A stretch of DNA of 64,000 nt from Olivibacter sp. XZL3 (lineage in GTDB: Bacteria; Bacteroidota; Bacteroidia; Sphingobacteriales; Sphingobacteriaceae): positions 62,001-126,000 of the forward strand of contig NZ_SBJH01000095.1 in the NCBI RefSeq assembly GCF_004368405.1, in the 5' to 3' direction. The translations under genes and the position numbers were made by a program. Below are positions 56,458 to 64,000 of this stretch, piece by piece (position 1 is the stretch's first letter; each line of letters opens with the position of its first letter). The notes below the pieces were generated by a model that worked only from the letters and a program-made list of their open reading frames with translations, was not told the DNA's origin and did not search any database.

Positions 56458-57774
56458 TTAAAGCTTCTCTCCATGTTGACTGATATCCAGTCCCAGCTCC
56501 TCCTCCTCCGGAGAAACGCGCAATTTGCTAATTGCATTCGTTAGTCTCAGCAAGATGAAAGCAGCGATAAATGTGTAGGCGACAGATCCGATCAGACCAA
56601 TGAGTTGAGCCCAAAACAAAGATGTTTCGCCAAAGAATAATCCGTCGGTAGCAACCGCAGAGTTTACTTGCTTGGATGCAAAAACGCCTGTGAGCAGCAT
56701 ACCGATCATACCTCCTACACCATGACTTGGAAACACATCCAATGTATCATCCACGTTTGAACGTGTTGTACGCCATTCAACCAGTAGGTTACAGATAATC
56801 GCTGTCACGACGCCTATAATGAGTGAATGTGGAACCGTTACAAAGCCCGCTGCAGGGGTAATTGCAACCAATCCAACCACCACACCAATCGAAACGCCTA
56901 GTGCCGAAGGTTTCTTTCCTCGCGCGGCATCAAAAAATATCCAAGCCAAAGCTGCTGCTGCCGAGGCCGTAGTGGTAGTCGCCAAAGCGGATGCTGCCAG
57001 GTGATTTGCACCAAAAGCGGAACCTGCGTTGAAACCGAACCATCCAAACCACAAAAGCCCCATACCGATCAGTACGTAGGTTACGCGAGCCGGGTCGTGT
57101 CCATTGCCGTTTCCTCTTTTCAAGAAGATAGCGGATACAAATGCAGTTACACCGGCAGACATATGCACAACCGTCCCTCCGGCAAAGTCCAACACCCCCA
57201 TGCTGGCCAGTATTCCCTCCGGATGCCAGGTAGCATGGGCCAAAGGAGCGTATATAAAGATGAAAAACAGGCAAACAAACAAGATATAAGAAGTAAAACG
57301 AATGCGTTCCGCAAAAGCGCCGGTTATCAGCGCTGGCGTAATAATGGCAAATTTTAACTGATACATCGCAAAAATGGCTAGTGGAATGGTAGGAGCTCCC
57401 TCCCAATTCGGCCCGTCTAGCACTCCCTTAAACATGAAAAAAGTAGCCGGGTTCCCGACGATACCGTGCAAAGACTCGCCAAATACTAAGCTAAAACCAA
57501 ATACTACCCAAATAACGGCCACGATGCACATACAGATGAAACTTTGGAGCATGGTCGAAATCACATTCTTTTTCTTGACCATACCGCCATAAAAAAATGC
57601 TAAACCGGGCGTCATGATTAATACTAAGGCTGTCGACGTCAACATCCAAGCCACATCTGCGCCGTCGTATTCCGCAGCCGCGTTTGCAGACAGAGGAACG
57701 GAGGGAAAAATCAGCGCCAAAAGCACCACAAGTAAGATAAAAATGAAAGGAATCGTTGATTTTTTCGAATTCAT
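56458..57774 (-). CDS. amtB: Ammonium transporter
   Basis: Inner-membrane trimeric ammonium channel of 438 residues with a cleavable signal (FPSVPLSANAAA) and about eleven helices. Family landmarks: TPGLAFFYGGMVKKKNVIS (near 60), the first pore His in DFAGGTVVHMSAGVTAFVSA, FNAGSAFGANHLAASA, and the second pore His in FPSHGVGGMIGMLLTG. The ATG at 57774 was chosen because it starts the signal peptide; the frame extends 19 codons further without purpose. No glnK/glnB gene is adjacent, which is unusual for amtB in many bacteria. It has a perfect promoter with an overlapping inverted repeat. Confidence 0.95.
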   Translation of the reverse strand: MNSKKSTIPFIFILLVVLLALIFPSVPLSANAAAEYDGADVAWMLTSTALVLIMTPGLAFFYGGMVKKKNVISTMLQSFICMCIVAVIWVVFGFSLVFGESLHGIVGNPATFFMFKGVLDGPNWEGAPTIPLAIFAMYQLKFAIITPALITGAFAERIRFTSYILFVCLFFIFIYAPLAHATWHPEGILASMGVLDFAGGTVVHMSAGVTAFVSAIFLKRGNGNGHDPARVTYVLIGMGLLWFGWFGFNAGSAFGANHLAASALATTTTASAAAALAWIFFDAARGKKPSALGVSIGVVVGLVAITPAAGFVTVPHSLIIGVVTAIICNLLVEWRTTRSNVDDTLDVFPSHGVGGMIGMLLTGVFASKQVNSAVATDGLFFGETSLFWAQLIGLIGSVAYTFIAAFILLRLTNAISKLRVSPEEEELGLDISQHGEKL

Positions 57775-57799
57775 ATGATATTTCGATATAACTGCGGGC

Positions 57800-57832
57800 C
57801 AAATATATATAATATTTTTAAAACAGAACAAA
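57800..57832 (-). promoter_or_regulatory. Promoter of amtB
   Basis: On the minus strand TTTG (57832-57829), 21-nt spacer, TATATTTG (57807-57800). Both boxes are perfect. Transcription would start about 20 nt before the ATG. Confidence 0.6.
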
Positions 57833-58040: not shown

Positions 58041-59531
58041 CTAAAGTAAGTCGAGCACCACAGCCGGGAAAATACCGAACAAAACAGTTAGCAGACACAA
58101 AAGAAAGGCCGTTATTAATAAAGCGTTTAGCGGAGCCTTTTGCTCGCTTTGTTCCGCAGCGCTTCTTAAAAACGCCTGTAGCGGAATTTTAAAATAAAAA
58201 AACAAAGCCACCACGGTTGTGATTGCTCCTGTGACCGCCAGCAGCAGCCATACCAAATCTGCCTCTGCCTGATAGGCGGTGAGCACTGCCGAAAAAGTGA
58301 GTAATTTAGCAACAAAGCCCGCCGTTGGCGGCAATCCGATAAGCGAAACCATTAAAATCGTTAGAGCGACCATTACTGCTGGATGAGATTTTCCTAAACC
58401 TCGATATTGGCTAATTTCGGTTAATCCCAATTTCTCTTCCAGATAATCGGCCAGCATAAACACCCCCATATTCATGATCACGTAAGAAGCTAAAAAAAAG
58501 AAAAGGATCGGAAAGGAACGCTCAACATCCGCTAATATGATCATCACTAGGAAACCCGTATGCCCGATGGAGGAATAAGCCATCATGCGCTTCATATTGT
58601 TCTGCCGGATCGCCACTAAATTCCCCACGAGCATGCTCGCCATAGCGATGACAGCCAAAAGGTAAAAAAGCGGCCTGGGTATAGCTGTATCTAGCGTTTG
58701 GGGCCAGGATAAAACAAAGCGTCCGAGGAGGACGATCGCTCCTATTTTCGGCGCGGTGGATAAAAAAGCAGTGACCGGCGTAGGCGCTCCTTGATATACG
58801 TCCGGACTCCAAAAGTGAAAAGGAACAAATGAGAGTTTGAATCCGATGCCTGTCAATACCAACAAAGTAGCCAGCATAAATACAGGAGCCGGCATTGCCA
58901 GAAGCCCTGTTAAATGGCGAGCGTCAACAAAACTAAGACTACCTGTATAACCGTAAAAAAAAGACAAGCCGTATAGCATAATTGCTGAGCATACCGTTCC
59001 AAAGAGCACATACTTTACAGCAGCTTCACTTTGTTTATTATCACGCGATAAATAGGCCACCATCACGTAAGAACCTATAGAAACCATTTCTATGGTAATA
59101 TATACCATCAACCAATTCACCGCAATAGCCATCAAATTCAGTCCGATATGAACGGCGAGTAAAACACTCAGTAAATCATCCATCTTTTTAGGATGATTTC
59201 GCAAAGGTTGATTATGGTATACAAAAATGCAGAACAGCAGGCAAACAAAACCAATGAGCACCTTCAGCAAAGCGCCGTTTGCATCGGGTAAAATCATCTC
59301 AAAAAAAACAGGGCCCGCAGCAGGCGAAGAGCTTTGAAGAACCGCAGCAAGACCGGCAGCCACAATACCGGTAACGCTCAGCCACCAGGTCACTTTAGAC
59401 TGACCTTTCGAAATTCCGGAGAATATGCTTAACAGAAAAGTAGTCGCTAATATAAATTCCGGCAACAGGAAGGGTAGCCCATCCAATACGCCATTTAACA
59501 ACTTACTTATTTGTGGAATGTATTCTCTCAT
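58041..59531 (-). CDS. nuoN: NADH-quinone oxidoreductase subunit N
   Basis: Antiporter-like membrane subunit of complex I, about 496 residues with some 14 helices. The conserved charged residues of the proton path are present: Glu in YITIEMVSIGSYVM (near 145), Lys in GIGFKLSFVPFHFWSPD (near 228), Lys in STAPKIGAIVLL (near 258) and Lys in GFVAKLLTFSAVL. The ATG at 59531 was chosen over a GTG at 59540. It is the last gene of the nuo cluster, 12 nt after nuoM. Confidence 0.95.
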   Translation of the reverse strand: MREYIPQISKLLNGVLDGLPFLLPEFILATTFLLSIFSGISKGQSKVTWWLSVTGIVAAGLAAVLQSSSPAAGPVFFEMILPDANGALLKVLIGFVCLLFCIFVYHNQPLRNHPKKMDDLLSVLLAVHIGLNLMAIAVNWLMVYITIEMVSIGSYVMVAYLSRDNKQSEAAVKYVLFGTVCSAIMLYGLSFFYGYTGSLSFVDARHLTGLLAMPAPVFMLATLLVLTGIGFKLSFVPFHFWSPDVYQGAPTPVTAFLSTAPKIGAIVLLGRFVLSWPQTLDTAIPRPLFYLLAVIAMASMLVGNLVAIRQNNMKRMMAYSSIGHTGFLVMIILADVERSFPILFFFLASYVIMNMGVFMLADYLEEKLGLTEISQYRGLGKSHPAVMVALTILMVSLIGLPPTAGFVAKLLTFSAVLTAYQAEADLVWLLLAVTGAITTVVALFFYFKIPLQAFLRSAAEQSEQKAPLNALLITAFLLCLLTVLFGIFPAVVLDLL

Positions 59532-59543
59532 AAATAACACTAC

Positions 59544-61145
59544 TTATTTTGCGCCACTCACCAATTCAATTAAAGAAAGTACGGAAGCGTTTATTTTATC
59601 AAAAGCCAGGGAGGGCATCAGACCGAACAAGAGTGCCAAAATCACCATGGGTACCAAAACGAACGTTTCCCTGCCGTCGACGTCCGTTAGCCGTGCCTTC
59701 CATTCATCTCCTCCTTTTAATCTGGTCTCTCCAAAAAACATACGTTGCAGTGTCCATAAAAAATAAGCGGCACTTAATAAAATTCCAATTGCGCCGCCGA
59801 TGGCCATCCACCTCGGCAGCAGCCCGTTAACACTTTCCGCGTTGAATGCTCCGATGATGGTAAAGGCTTCCGCAATAAAAGCCGAGAAGCCCGGTAATCC
59901 AAGAGACGCAAAAAACGCGATTGCTACAAAAGCCGTATATTTGGGCATCATGGTTCCCAGACCCCTGAAGTTATAGATCATCCGATCATGCACCCGATCA
60001 TATATTATTCCTACCAGAAAGAACAGCATCGCGGATAAAAATCCGTGACTGACCATTTGAAACATTGCACCACTCAGTCCCTCTGGCGTCAAAGAAGCGA
60101 TTCCTAAAAGTACAAACCCCATATGCGAAACGGAAGAATAAGCGACCAAACGTTTCAAATCCTGTTGTGCCAAGGCATTAAGCGCCCCGTATAGGATGGA
60201 AATTACCCCAATAAGTCCGATCCACCACGCGCTGTCCAGTGCGATATCAGGAAAAATACTGTAGCATATCCTGATCATACCATAGCCCCCCACTTTCAGC
60301 AGTATCCCCGCTAGAATGATAGAAATGGGCGTAGGCGCCTCCACGTGTGCATCAGGCAACCAAGTGTGCAGCGGTACGATCGGCACTTTAATAGCAAAAG
60401 CGATAAAAAGAACGATAAATGCGAGCAGGCGGGCAGCTATGCCAAATAGTTGATAGTCGCCCGAAACCGAAAAGATGGAGCCATCTAGGTAGTTTTTACC
60501 GTCCATCATGTGCAATAAATTAAAGGTATGGTTTCCGGTAACCGGGTCGATAACCGAAAAATATAAGCCGACCATCACCAGTAACATGAATACCGAACCG
60601 AACAAGGTATAAAGAAAAAATTTCATGGCTGCGTATTCTCTTCTTGCTCCGCCCCAAATGCCTATAAGAAAATATAGCGGCAGCAGCATAACCTCGTAGA
60701 ACACATAAAAAAGGAAAAAATCGAGCGCCACAAACACACCCATAACCGCCATATTGAGCAATAACAAGAGGGAGAAAAAACCTTTAGGCTGCTTATCAAT
60801 CTTCCACGAAGCCACAACGGCTACGAACATCACCAAGGCGGTTAAGAACAAGAACAAAATAGAAAATCCGTCGACCCCTACGAAATAATCGACCTCCAAA
60901 CTACCCAAACTGCCCAAGTTCAACCTAATCCAAGGGAGCTTCTCTACGAATTGGTAACTATCTATTGCAGAAACTCCAGCAAGCTTTTCGTCAAACGAAG
61001 TATACATATAAGCCGCGAGCAACAGCTGTACCGCACTTACGCCCGCTGCAAGGTATTTGTAGAGGGCTTTGTAGGCCGAAGGCACCAGCAATATAAGAAG
61101 CGCTGCAAGTAAAGGCAAAAAGATTAAAACAGACAATAAGCTCAT
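59544..61145 (-). CDS. nuoM: NADH-quinone oxidoreductase subunit M
   Basis: Antiporter-like subunit of complex I, 533 residues, about 14 helices. Conserved residues are visible: Glu in FYEVMLLPLYFLIGIWGG (near 150), Lys in FAIKVPIVPLHTWLPDAHVEAP (near 247), Lys in GILLKVGGYGMIRI, and Glu in FSAFIAEAFTIIGAF (near 425). It is packed 9 nt after nuoL and drives proton pumping with L and N. Confidence 0.96.
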   Translation of the reverse strand: MSLLSVLIFLPLLAALLILLVPSAYKALYKYLAAGVSAVQLLLAAYMYTSFDEKLAGVSAIDSYQFVEKLPWIRLNLGSLGSLEVDYFVGVDGFSILFLFLTALVMFVAVVASWKIDKQPKGFFSLLLLLNMAVMGVFVALDFFLFYVFYEVMLLPLYFLIGIWGGARREYAAMKFFLYTLFGSVFMLLVMVGLYFSVIDPVTGNHTFNLLHMMDGKNYLDGSIFSVSGDYQLFGIAARLLAFIVLFIAFAIKVPIVPLHTWLPDAHVEAPTPISIILAGILLKVGGYGMIRICYSIFPDIALDSAWWIGLIGVISILYGALNALAQQDLKRLVAYSSVSHMGFVLLGIASLTPEGLSGAMFQMVSHGFLSAMLFFLVGIIYDRVHDRMIYNFRGLGTMMPKYTAFVAIAFFASLGLPGFSAFIAEAFTIIGAFNAESVNGLLPRWMAIGGAIGILLSAAYFLWTLQRMFFGETRLKGGDEWKARLTDVDGRETFVLVPMVILALLFGLMPSLAFDKINASVLSLIELVSGAK

Positions 61146-61154
61146 ATTTCCAGG

Positions 61155-63212
61155 TTAAGGACTAAAAATCTTTAATCCAACAAATAACACAATTAACAAA
61201 ACTAAAAACATACTAAACAAATAGTATTGTATCTTCCCTTTTCTTGAACCGCGCAATACACCGCCCGCAAAAACGGCAGCCTTTCCGACTCCGTTTACCA
61301 AGCCATCCACCAAGGCCCGATCAAGCCATTGCGCCGTATTGGCAAACCAACGGACAGTACCTGCACCTGTATCTACTAAGCCGTCCACTATTGTGCGATC
61401 AAATGCGTACAACATCTTCGATACCTTCAGTAGCGGCTTAACGATGCCTTTTTCATACATTACATTGAGATACCACTGCGCAGCGGAAAACTCATAAAGC
61501 CTACCACGCAAGCTGCCCTGCGGATATTTACCTTGTGCATACCATCTCCAAGCTATAAAAATCATCACAATGGCCAGTCCATTGACTGCCGCTGGCACAA
61601 CAGTATGATATATATTAACGCGTTCCAAGGTCTCCGGCAATTCGAAACCTTTAATTATCCAGGTATCTTCGAATAGGAGTGGATTATATGAAAATAGCGG
61701 AAAGAGAGAGCAGAGTCCCAAAAACAGCATGGGAAGCAGCATGCCACGGGGCGCTTCATGCAGATAGTTTGTCCCTTGACCGATTGCAGAAATCCTGGGC
61801 TTTCCATAAAACACCTTGAATACTAATCTAGCGATATAGAAAGCCGTCAAGGCACTGGTCACTAACAAGGACACCGGAATAAACTTCCACCAGGCAGACT
61901 GCCATTCGGCCCATTCGAAAGCAAAAATCAGAATAGCATCTTTAGAGAGGTAACCGGCAGTTAGCGGTAAACCTGCGAGTGCAAGGGCCGCCACCAGCGT
62001 TAAGCGGAAAGTATGAGGCATATACCGTCGCAATCCCCCCATATTCCGTATATCTTGCGGATCTAACTCGAGTTTAAGCGTTTCTTTTACGTGCTGCATC
62101 TCATGTATGACTGCTCCGGCTGAGAGGAAAAGTAAACACTTAAAAAACGCATGCGTAACCAAGTGAAAGATAGCCACGCCATATTGCCCGATACCTATGG
62201 CAACCATCATAAAGCCCAATTGCGAAATGGTAGAAAACGCTAATATTTTCTTTATATCCTGCTGCGTGAGGGCGATGGTAGCAGCCATCAGCGCCGTAAA
62301 GGCACCTATAGCACCGATGAGCAAAAGTATCTGCGCATCAAAAAGCGGAGAAATCCTTACGAGCATGAAAACACCTGCAGCAACCATGGTTGCCGCGTGA
62401 ATCAAAGAAGAAACCGAGGTAGGCCCCTCCATCGCATCAGGTAACCAGATATGAAAAGGGAATTGGGCCGATTTCGCCATTGCACCTAGAAAGAAGGCTG
62501 CTCCTGCGATCGTCAACCAAAAAGCTGGCATAGCATGCTGCGCGTATCGCCATTCCACACCATCGTTAAAGGCTTCCCGTACCATTCCATGGTCTCCAAA
62601 GAGTGCGACTAAATCCAGTGTCTGAAACTGCGTATAAATAATCGCTATTCCGATAAGAAACCCAAGATCTCCTATCCTGTTAATCAAAAAGGCCTTTTTA
62701 TTGGCCTTTATGGCGGCAGGCCTTGTAAACCAAAAACCGATCAATAGATAGGAAGCAAAGCCCACGAGCTCCCATCCTATATACATAAGTAACAGGCTAT
62801 CGGCCATCACCAGGCCAAGCATGGCGAAGCAAAAAAGGCTGAGGTAGAGCCAATATCGATGGATGCCGTAATCGCCCTTCATGTAAACCATTGAATATAC
62901 GTGGACGGGAAGTGCAATGGCACACACGAGCAACAACAGGAGAGCCGACAAATTATTCAGTAATATACCCGCTTTGAAAGAATGCTCCCCTATCCGGAAC
63001 CAGGATGTTTGTTGATGGACTTGCTGCCCGTTCCAAACAGTGGCAAAGATAAAAATTGCTGCCAGCAGGCTTATCGCAATCGCCACTGTAGCCGGAATTC
63101 CGCTTCGTAACCGTTTTCCCGCAATGGCGGAGAGACCAAAAGAAATGAGTGGAGCACACAGCACAATAAGTGCCGCTAAAACAGGTGTTGATATCTGACT
63201 CAGCTGGTCCAT
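61155..63212 (-). CDS. nuoL: NADH-quinone oxidoreductase subunit L
   Basis: Distal antiporter-like subunit of complex I with the long lateral helix, 685 residues. Key sites are intact: Glu in LMYIGWELVGFASYLLIG (near 145), Lys in AMAKSAQFPFHIWLPDAMEGP (near 245), Lys in QQDIKKILAFSTISQLG, and Lys in HAFFKCLLFLSAGAV (near 357). A long C-terminal part ends in a last membrane helix (YYLFSMFLVLLIVLFVGLKI). It starts directly after the nuoK stop codon with no gap. Confidence 0.96.
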   Translation of the reverse strand: MDQLSQISTPVLAALIVLCAPLISFGLSAIAGKRLRSGIPATVAIAISLLAAIFIFATVWNGQQVHQQTSWFRIGEHSFKAGILLNNLSALLLLLVCAIALPVHVYSMVYMKGDYGIHRYWLYLSLFCFAMLGLVMADSLLLMYIGWELVGFASYLLIGFWFTRPAAIKANKKAFLINRIGDLGFLIGIAIIYTQFQTLDLVALFGDHGMVREAFNDGVEWRYAQHAMPAFWLTIAGAAFFLGAMAKSAQFPFHIWLPDAMEGPTSVSSLIHAATMVAAGVFMLVRISPLFDAQILLLIGAIGAFTALMAATIALTQQDIKKILAFSTISQLGFMMVAIGIGQYGVAIFHLVTHAFFKCLLFLSAGAVIHEMQHVKETLKLELDPQDIRNMGGLRRYMPHTFRLTLVAALALAGLPLTAGYLSKDAILIFAFEWAEWQSAWWKFIPVSLLVTSALTAFYIARLVFKVFYGKPRISAIGQGTNYLHEAPRGMLLPMLFLGLCSLFPLFSYNPLLFEDTWIIKGFELPETLERVNIYHTVVPAAVNGLAIVMIFIAWRWYAQGKYPQGSLRGRLYEFSAAQWYLNVMYEKGIVKPLLKVSKMLYAFDRTIVDGLVDTGAGTVRWFANTAQWLDRALVDGLVNGVGKAAVFAGGVLRGSRKGKIQYYLFSMFLVLLIVLFVGLKIFSP

Positions 63213-63518
63213 TTAGTCTTTCAAATCGTTAATGTCGTCTGGATTAATACTCTTATAGTGTTTATATACATTCAGTATAATCGCCAACGCAACCGCTACA
63301 GCGGCGGCAGCCAAGACGATAGCGAATAAAGCAAAAGTTTGGCCTCCGTAGAGACCGCCGTCATATCTGCCGAAAGCCACCAAATTTAAGACCGCCGCAT
63401 TAATCATTAGCTCAATGCCCACCAATACCAGAATAGCATTCTTCTTGGCCAATACAGCGTATAACCCGGTGGAAAACAACAAAGCACTGACCAGCAGGAA
63501 ATGGGTTAGGCTTATCAC
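63213..63518 (-). CDS. nuoK: NADH-quinone oxidoreductase subunit K
   Basis: Small three-helix subunit of complex I (ND4L), 101 residues, starting at a GTG (63518) that overlaps the nuoJ stop by 4 nt. The N-terminus MISLTHFLLVSALLFSTGLY and the motif VGIELMINAAVLN with the essential Glu36 fit the family. The second conserved membrane Glu (E. coli Glu72, in AAAEA) is replaced: the matching segment here reads VLAAAAVAVALA, with Ala73 at that position. This leaves the subunit with only one of the two glutamates in its half-channel. Confidence 0.95.
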   Translation of the reverse strand: MISLTHFLLVSALLFSTGLYAVLAKKNAILVLVGIELMINAAVLNLVAFGRYDGGLYGGQTFALFAIVLAAAAVAVALAIILNVYKHYKSINPDDINDLKD

Positions 63519-64000
63519 GGTTCCTGATTCTCCTTCCTCGCCAAATGAGCAGCGCCCATCAATGCCATCATCAGAAACACAGAAACCACTTCAAAGGGCA
63601 ATACATAGCGCGTCATGAGGTTAATTCCTAAATGATGTATGGTATTATCTTGATACCGAATCAACAGCTGTTGCTGCTTCGCCTCGGTGATCCACTGCGG
63701 CTCGTTTATTGCCACCTGCCATACGACACTGAGCAGCATCGTAAAAAAGCTAATAGCTATGATTCCTGCCTGCCAAGATGGCATCCCAAAAACACCCTTG
63801 ACACCCGACTGTAAATCGCTCAGCAATACCTTATTTGACAACATAAACGCAAACAGCATTAACACTAAGACGCCGCCTACATAAACAATGACCTGCGTTA
63901 CCGCCACAAAATCGGCCAAGGCAAAAACATAAAGACCGGCCACAGCAAACAGCGTTACAAAGAAAAGGAACAAGCTCCGCACTAGATTTTTCATGGAAAC
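63515..64000 (-). CDS. nuoJ: NADH-quinone oxidoreductase subunit J (5' end outside the window)
   Basis: Complex I subunit of the ND6 type. The visible part has VIVYVGGVLVLMLFAFML (the helix with the conserved pi-bulge region) and the C-terminal PFEVVSVFLMMALMGAAHLA. An in-frame ATG at 63994 would give 159 residues, but the protein would then lack the first membrane helix of NuoJ. The frame stays open through the last six bases, so I read it as partial, continuing past 64000. The nuoA-I genes are presumably beyond the edge. Confidence 0.9.
   Translation of the reverse strand, partial: VSMKNLVRSLFLFFVTLFAVAGLYVFALADFVAVTQVIVYVGGVLVLMLFAFMLSNKVLLSDLQSGVKGVFGMPSWQAGIIAISFFTMLLSVVWQVAINEPQWITEAKQQQLLIRYQDNTIHHLGINLMTRYVLPFEVVSVFLMMALMGAAHLARKENQEP

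Follow-up and report, generated by a model that had tools for sequence, protein, structure and literature searches.

The NuoK subunit of complex I encoded in the window (the whole stretch of 64,000 nucleotides from Olivibacter sp. XZL3 analyzed here) has the first of the two buried glutamates, Glu36, and carries an alanine in place of the second, Glu72 (E. coli numbering). On the sequences collected, a NuoK that lacks Glu72 is the mark of one of the two types of complex I in Sphingobacteriaceae, hereafter the A-type, and of two rare lineages besides. We favor, with a probability of roughly 0.6, the reading that the A-type enzyme is a working proton pump whose ancestor lost Glu72 and whose NuoK relay would operate with one carboxylate.

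Across nuoK the plus strand is broken by stops, and the NuoK frame lies on the minus strand (Table 1). Its product scores 89.1 bits with Pfam PF00420 (cut-off 26.1) and 98.2 with the NuoK model NCBIfam NF004320 (cut-off 57). An AlphaFold model of the window NuoK alone predicts helices at residues 4-24, 28-52, and 59-89 (mean pLDDT 85.6), consistent with the three transmembrane (TM) helices expected of NuoK/ND4L, and a fold search with NuoK returned mainly complex I and Mrp chains together with two unrelated chains at ranks 36 and 47. An earlier note on this DNA had claimed that Glu36 is kept and that alanine occupies the Glu72 position; the alignment with E. coli NuoK and the codons GAG and GCT bear this out. 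Owing to a one-residue insertion, the window numbering at Ala73 is that of E. coli plus one. Residues 62-82 (FALFAIVLAAAAVAVALAIIL) include zero charged residues, and TM3 is without an acid. The second buried glutamate is conserved in known NuoK/ND4L members, and is not itself family-defining.

Table 1. Positions of the complex I genes and NuoK residues discussed in the text (window coordinates)
Feature	Position	Strand	Remarks
nuoK, putative A-type 11-subunit complex I	63213..63518	minus	101 aa, GTG start; without Glu72, with Glu36
NuoK Glu36	GAG 63413-63411	minus	present in 258/258 distinct NuoK cores collected
NuoK Val43	GTC 63392-63390	minus	aliphatic site linked to Glu72 loss
NuoK Ala73	GCT 63302-63300	minus	E. 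coli NuoK Glu72 position, by alignment with E. coli NuoK 3rko
nuoJ, cut at window end	63515..64000	minus	whole gene 183 aa, L001 1800-2351
nuoL	61155..63212	minus	E144, D178, K229, H254, H334, H338, K399, D400 (E. coli numbers) kept; D82 is Asn86
nuoM	59544..61145	minus	E144, K234, K265, H322, H348, E407 (E. coli numbers) kept
nuoN	58041..59540	minus	E133, K217, K247, K395 kept

The absence of Glu72 is shared by the relatives of the window NuoK. Among the best 80 of 193 confirmed relatives (at named loci), site 72 is Ala in 46, Thr in 17, Ser in 16, and Gly in one, with Glu in 0/80 and Glu36 in 80/80. These 80 belong to Olivibacter, Sphingobacterium, Parapedobacter, Mucilaginibacter, Arcticibacter, and another member of the Sphingobacteriaceae; the nearest named relative among the matches listed is Olivibacter jilunii (94% identity). 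Since none of the best 80 of 193 relatives has Glu at this site, Ala73 is not a sequencing error. Together with these relatives, the dN/dS of about 0.01 between the nuoK genes of the window and of genome G001 (with a dS of 3.4, near saturation) also rules out a pseudogene; the comparisons with G003 and G002 gave dN values of 0.12 and 0.22, with dS not computable. A glutamate shifted within TM3, which the earlier note had raised beside sequencing error as another way to explain the alanine, is absent from the window, and none of 126 Glu72-less NuoK ORFs (a set in which one gene can recur under different loci) has an Asp or Glu 12 or fewer alignment columns away from it, so that neither explanation holds.

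The wider collection of 323 NuoK ORFs, reduced to 258 distinct cores, was chosen by similarity to the queries, and its counts are not prevalences: site 72 is Glu in 165, Ala in 49, Thr in 22, Ser in 18, and Gly in 4. The 93 distinct cores without Glu72 fall into three lineages and have solely Ala, Ser, Thr, or Gly there. The survey covers Bacteroidota, and outside that phylum the E. coli sequence and the PDB alignments shown. NuoK rows from the sister group, in other Bacteroidota families, have Glu72 in 24/24 cases, as do 40/40 further NuoK sequences that were fetched (31 from outside the class, three seen before). Within the family, 18 of 25 Sphingobacteriaceae genomes examined (two of the 25 less than 80% complete) have a match to the window-type NuoK at 99 bits or more, with the remaining matches at 77 bits or less. 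The question of whether the substitution is clade-wide in Bacteroidota, which the earlier note had posed, therefore has a divided answer: it is fixed in the Sphingobacteriaceae A-type sequences collected, and it does not extend to all Bacteroidota, as the sister NuoEFG-free enzymes and the canonical copy keep Glu72.

The window genome (G000; 5.36 Mb in 122 contigs) encodes a second NuoK, 48% identical to the window copy, in which Glu72 is present. Its canonical (B-type) operon comprises nuoC, D, E, F, G, and H-N, and nuoB falls immediately outside the fetched stretch; the same operon in G001 and G003 starts with nuoA and nuoB. Around the window, the only nuo genes are nuoH, I, J, K, L, M, and N. 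NuoD and NuoB family searches located second copies on other contigs, and the A-type gene set (A, B, C, D, and H-N) is complete over three loci, nuoA-nuoB (L127), nuoC-nuoD (L126), and nuoH-N (L112). The nuoA-nuoB locus adjoins purK/purE-like genes and the nuoC-nuoD locus lies near a pdxH-like gene (names read from the sequences). An incomplete seven-subunit complex at the window operon was considered and dropped once nuoAB and nuoCD had been found at the two other loci. NuoE, NuoF, or NuoG matches were found in 0/31 fetched A-type loci, and the single NuoF copy of the window genome lies inside the canonical operon. We infer that the window NuoK belongs to a separate 11-subunit, NuoEFG-free complex I; copy numbers and co-occurrence suggest that the 11 A-type products form one complex.

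Among 17 A-type genomes examined for NuoD, NuoB, and NuoF, 16 contain one or more complex I sets besides the A-type. The remaining one, the Olivibacter congener G002 (estimated to be 99% complete), has one NuoK, with Ser at site 72, one NuoB, and one NuoD, and searches of it returned no NuoF match and no NqrB match. The A-type enzyme is probably functional, because G002 has only this enzyme and neither of these two matches; purifying selection on nuoK supports the same view. As to the surroundings of these genes, an ammonium-transporter-like gene (56458-57831) lies downstream of nuoN, and a gene for a pyruvate-oxidase-like TPP enzyme (L112 9048-10784) upstream of nuoH, as it does in G001 and G003 (both names read from the sequences). 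In some other families, the 11-subunit genes look scattered too, and G303 and G485 (family f15) have a single A-to-N cluster with murI-like and other genes interspersed. In three Sphingobacteriaceae genomes (G004, G008, and G011; L118-L120), NuoK, NuoD, and NuoB each have three matches and NuoF has two; an open frame of 585-590 aa in G004 and G008 that includes one of the NuoD matches may be a fused NuoCD.

The residues that carry charge elsewhere in the membrane arm have been retained to a large extent. In the A-type sequences, NuoH E157, D213, E216, E220, and E228 are present in 16/16, as are NuoN E133, K217, K247, and K395 (16/16); NuoM E144, K234, K265, H322, H348, and E407 are present in 17/17, and so are NuoL E144, D178, K229, H254, H334, H338, and K399 (site 400 is Asp in 14 and Glu in 3) and NuoJ Y59. 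The NuoA FDVE motif is found in 9/9 (two sisters have FEVE), NuoD HPSTHG in 9/9, and the two 4Fe4S motifs of NuoI in 16/16. The NuoB cluster motif is intact in 8/9, the ninth (G002) having only a Ser to Ala change beside a cysteine. The NuoJ E80 site is not kept (Asp 7, Asn 4, Lys 2, Val 2, Thr 1, Ser 1), and the four sisters compared have no acid there either. The charged axis residues of proton-pumping complex I in NuoL, NuoM, NuoN, and NuoH are present with one exception, NuoL D82: its site is Asn in 14/17 A-type sequences and in 2/2 from G466 and G483, and Asp in 15/16 sisters (the other being Asn) and in 6/6 canonical copies. The statement in the earlier note that charged residues are preserved in the other antiporter-like subunits thus holds for the NuoL, NuoM, and NuoN residues checked, apart from this Asp to Asn change. 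NuoL D82 was considered as a partner residue and rejected, as its change is incomplete and it is remote from NuoK in the known architecture. The loss is therefore almost confined to one residue of the examined pathway, NuoL D82 being the other conserved acid that changed.

When A-type NuoK is compared with sister NuoK, polarity also changes sharply at a single further site, position 43, which lies two helix turns past Glu36. In the 93 Glu72-less cores this position is always aliphatic (Ile 79, Val 11, Leu 3), in contrast to the 165 Glu72-bearing cores, where Ile, Val, or Leu is found in 0/165 (Asn 157, Ala 3, Ser 2, Asp 1, His 1, Gly 1). Asn43 together with Glu72 is also seen in the alignments shown for NuoK of Thermus, Paracoccus, Mycobacterium, one cyanobacterium, and one chloroplast. 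E. coli NuoK has Ala43 with Glu72, and mammalian ND4L has Phe at position 43 with the second glutamate retained, so the position-43 rule is not universal. We infer that residues 43 and 72 share one pocket, and the linkage between the two sites names a candidate partner residue for Glu72.

Because related NuoEFG-free Bacteroidota enzymes keep Glu72, its loss is placed on the stem of the Sphingobacteriaceae clade, where no row collected has regained it. By parsimony, two more lineages would have lost Glu72: G266 has Gly72 with Ile43, and G466 and G483 have Ala72 with Leu43. With NuoH-I-J-K-L-M combined (2017 columns from 44 rows, leaving out sites 43 and 72), the tree needs three losses; in it the Sphingobacteriaceae A-type forms one clade (SH-aLRT 100) and G466/G483 are placed elsewhere. 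An AU test rejects the grouping of Sphingobacteriaceae with G466/G483 as one clade (p 0.013, for a group named post hoc and a quick tree). In a tree of NuoI, NuoJ, and NuoK (28 rows), G266 falls outside the A-type clade; it has 20% of the six-subunit columns filled and a long branch. For both of these trees, a locus had to contribute 2 or 3 subunits at minimum. NuoK by itself (215 rows after removal of duplicates and of rows with more than 25 gaps, sites 43 and 72 again omitted) needs two changes, of which the supported branches force one, and gave the independent-pairs test no power. Collectively, these trees make two independent losses of Glu72 likely and three probable, with a separate origin for G266 being tentative.

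In E. coli NuoK, Glu36 is more important than Glu72, and Glu72 mutants reportedly retain part of their activity. Mutants of the E. coli subunit are the subject of studies by Kervinen (2004), Kao (2005), and Torres-Bacete (2012). A passage in PMC13324432 describes a proton route from NuoH E157 through NuoA D79 to NuoK E36, in which protonation of E36/E72 triggers the NuoN ion pair. In the mouse enzyme, ND4L-E70 (the Glu72 homologue) is hydrogen-bonded directly to ND2-E34, which corresponds to NuoN Glu133, according to part of PMC10396290, and simulations described in a section of PMC12529768 find the water wire that joins ND3-D66 to ND4L-E34 broken once ND4L-E70 has a proton vacancy. This last description points to an intact wire when residue 72 is neutral. 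The reports on the wire, on the hydrogen bond, and on E36/E72 are the grounds for proposing a relay by Glu36 alone. In this scenario, charge arriving via NuoH and NuoA at NuoK Glu36 would pass through water directly to NuoN Glu133/Lys217, with no Glu72 stepping-stone; the former Glu72/Asn43 pocket would now be hydrophobic, the small neutral residue at 72 would act as an electrostatic mimic of a permanently protonated Glu72, and the A-type enzyme would pump protons normally. Against a one-carboxylate relay stands a statement in part of PMC7419157 that both glutamates of this complex I subunit are essential.

Another membrane-arm acid might instead have taken the place of Glu72, most plausibly NuoH Glu121 of the window genome (L112 7754-8833, just outside the window), an extra acid where E. 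coli has Ala126. This position is acidic in A-type (16/16; Glu 14, Asp 2), sister (9/9), and third-lineage (1/1) NuoH, in contrast to Gly in 6/6 canonical copies. Moreover, acid gains at NuoH E46, NuoL D138 and D384, NuoM D200, E355, and D387, and NuoA E61 and D138 emerged from a loose first comparison against few sisters, which showed none in NuoJ. However, the sisters that carry Asp at the NuoH site still bear Glu72, so this acid did not arise with the loss, and no gain in NuoH, NuoJ, NuoL, NuoM, or NuoN survived a stricter comparison with a 75% difference threshold and more sisters (H 9, J 12, L 16, M 16, N 10). What is left is NuoA E12 and D138, which lie near the ends of the protein and derive from 2 sister sequences only. 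In the established architecture, NuoA and NuoJ also lie between NuoH and the NuoK-NuoN contact. We therefore regard replacement by another acid as decidedly unlikely. The NuoH carboxylate is a mark of the Bacteroidota NuoEFG-free lineage, an older extra acid that could contribute. Compensation within NuoJ, proposed in the earlier note, finds no support, as no acid gain is seen in the NuoJ of Glu72-less enzymes (17 A-type against 12 sister sequences). The note had also spoken of a J-K-L interface; in complex I, NuoK adjoins NuoJ and NuoN, not NuoL.

An unlikely alternative is that the enzyme still pumps at a lowered stoichiometry, for example with one proton fewer per two electrons, one NuoK switching site being gone. 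A model described in part of PMC9802314 assigns two forward electrostatic waves to the protonation and deprotonation of the two ND4L/Nqo11 glutamates, and with one glutamate only one wave could operate; without NuoEFG, the donor potential may also differ from that of NADH. Stoichiometry is not readable from sequence, however, and the listed pump residues of the antiporter subunits are retained. The change in coupling or stoichiometry raised in the earlier note may hold for the A-type. An uncoupled or decaying enzyme, in which the loss of Glu72 would reflect relaxed constraint, is very improbable in our view. It would fit the presence of another complex I set in nearly all A-type genomes (16/17) and the change of NuoL D82, but not the low dN/dS (obtained from the single computable pair), the invariant Glu36 and other retained channel residues, the restriction of site 72 to Ala, Ser, Thr, and Gly across 93 distinct cores, or G002, where NuoF and any further NuoK match are absent. 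On balance we return to a coupled A-type pump with a one-carboxylate NuoK as the preferred reading.

How charge is transferred through the E-channel from quinone to the pump subunits is debated, and some proposals, as set out in parts of PMC9802314 and PMC13324432, rest on two NuoK/ND4L glutamates. A broader proposition, which we advance tentatively and with the odds somewhat against it, is that a complex I with a single NuoK carboxylate pumps protons and that Glu72 and its Asn43 partner were dropped independently in three lineages. If so, models with two alternating glutamates in NuoK/ND4L would not describe all complex I, and the A-type could differ in its coupling cycle or stoichiometry. 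The family-wide loss amounts to a natural mutation of Glu72; in many species the cell also contains a complex I with Glu72 that can serve as a control, and in one species the A-type is the sole complex I found. Whether complex I needs the second glutamate, and how that residue affects stoichiometry, can thereby be tested directly. The open-access papers listed include no report of a complex I that is naturally without Glu72, nor of this split 11-subunit enzyme.

Complex I-like enzymes with 11 subunits and without NuoEFG are known from cyanobacteria (NDH-1) and other bacteria. The canonical 14-subunit complex I (E. coli, Thermus, Paracoccus, and the B-type of the same genome) shares with the A-type the three-TM fold of NuoK, Glu36, the E-channel and antiporter residues, and the Fe-S motifs of NuoB and NuoI. 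The A-type differs from it in lacking Glu72, in having an aliphatic residue 43 and no adjoining NuoEFG, and in the spread of its genes over three loci. Cyanobacterial NDH-1 has the same ABCDHIJKLMN content, and its subunit 4L (6hum) is the best PDB match of the window NuoK; unlike the A-type, the cyanobacterial and chloroplast 4L subunits keep the second glutamate in the alignments shown. MrpC of the Mrp antiporters is a NuoK homologue without the glutamate pair; in its place, according to part of PMC7419157, Mrp has two conserved histidines, unlike the window NuoK, which also fails to reach the cut-off in any of the MrpC models listed. The sister NuoEFG-free Bacteroidota enzymes (such as those of L180 and L295) belong to the same complex I clade and have the extra NuoH acid. 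In none of the fetched sister loci were NuoE, F, or G matches found beside the fetched genes. L180 and L295 have one A-to-N cluster with a few other genes between, and the sister enzymes differ from the A-type in that Glu72 is kept and position 43 is nearly always Asn.
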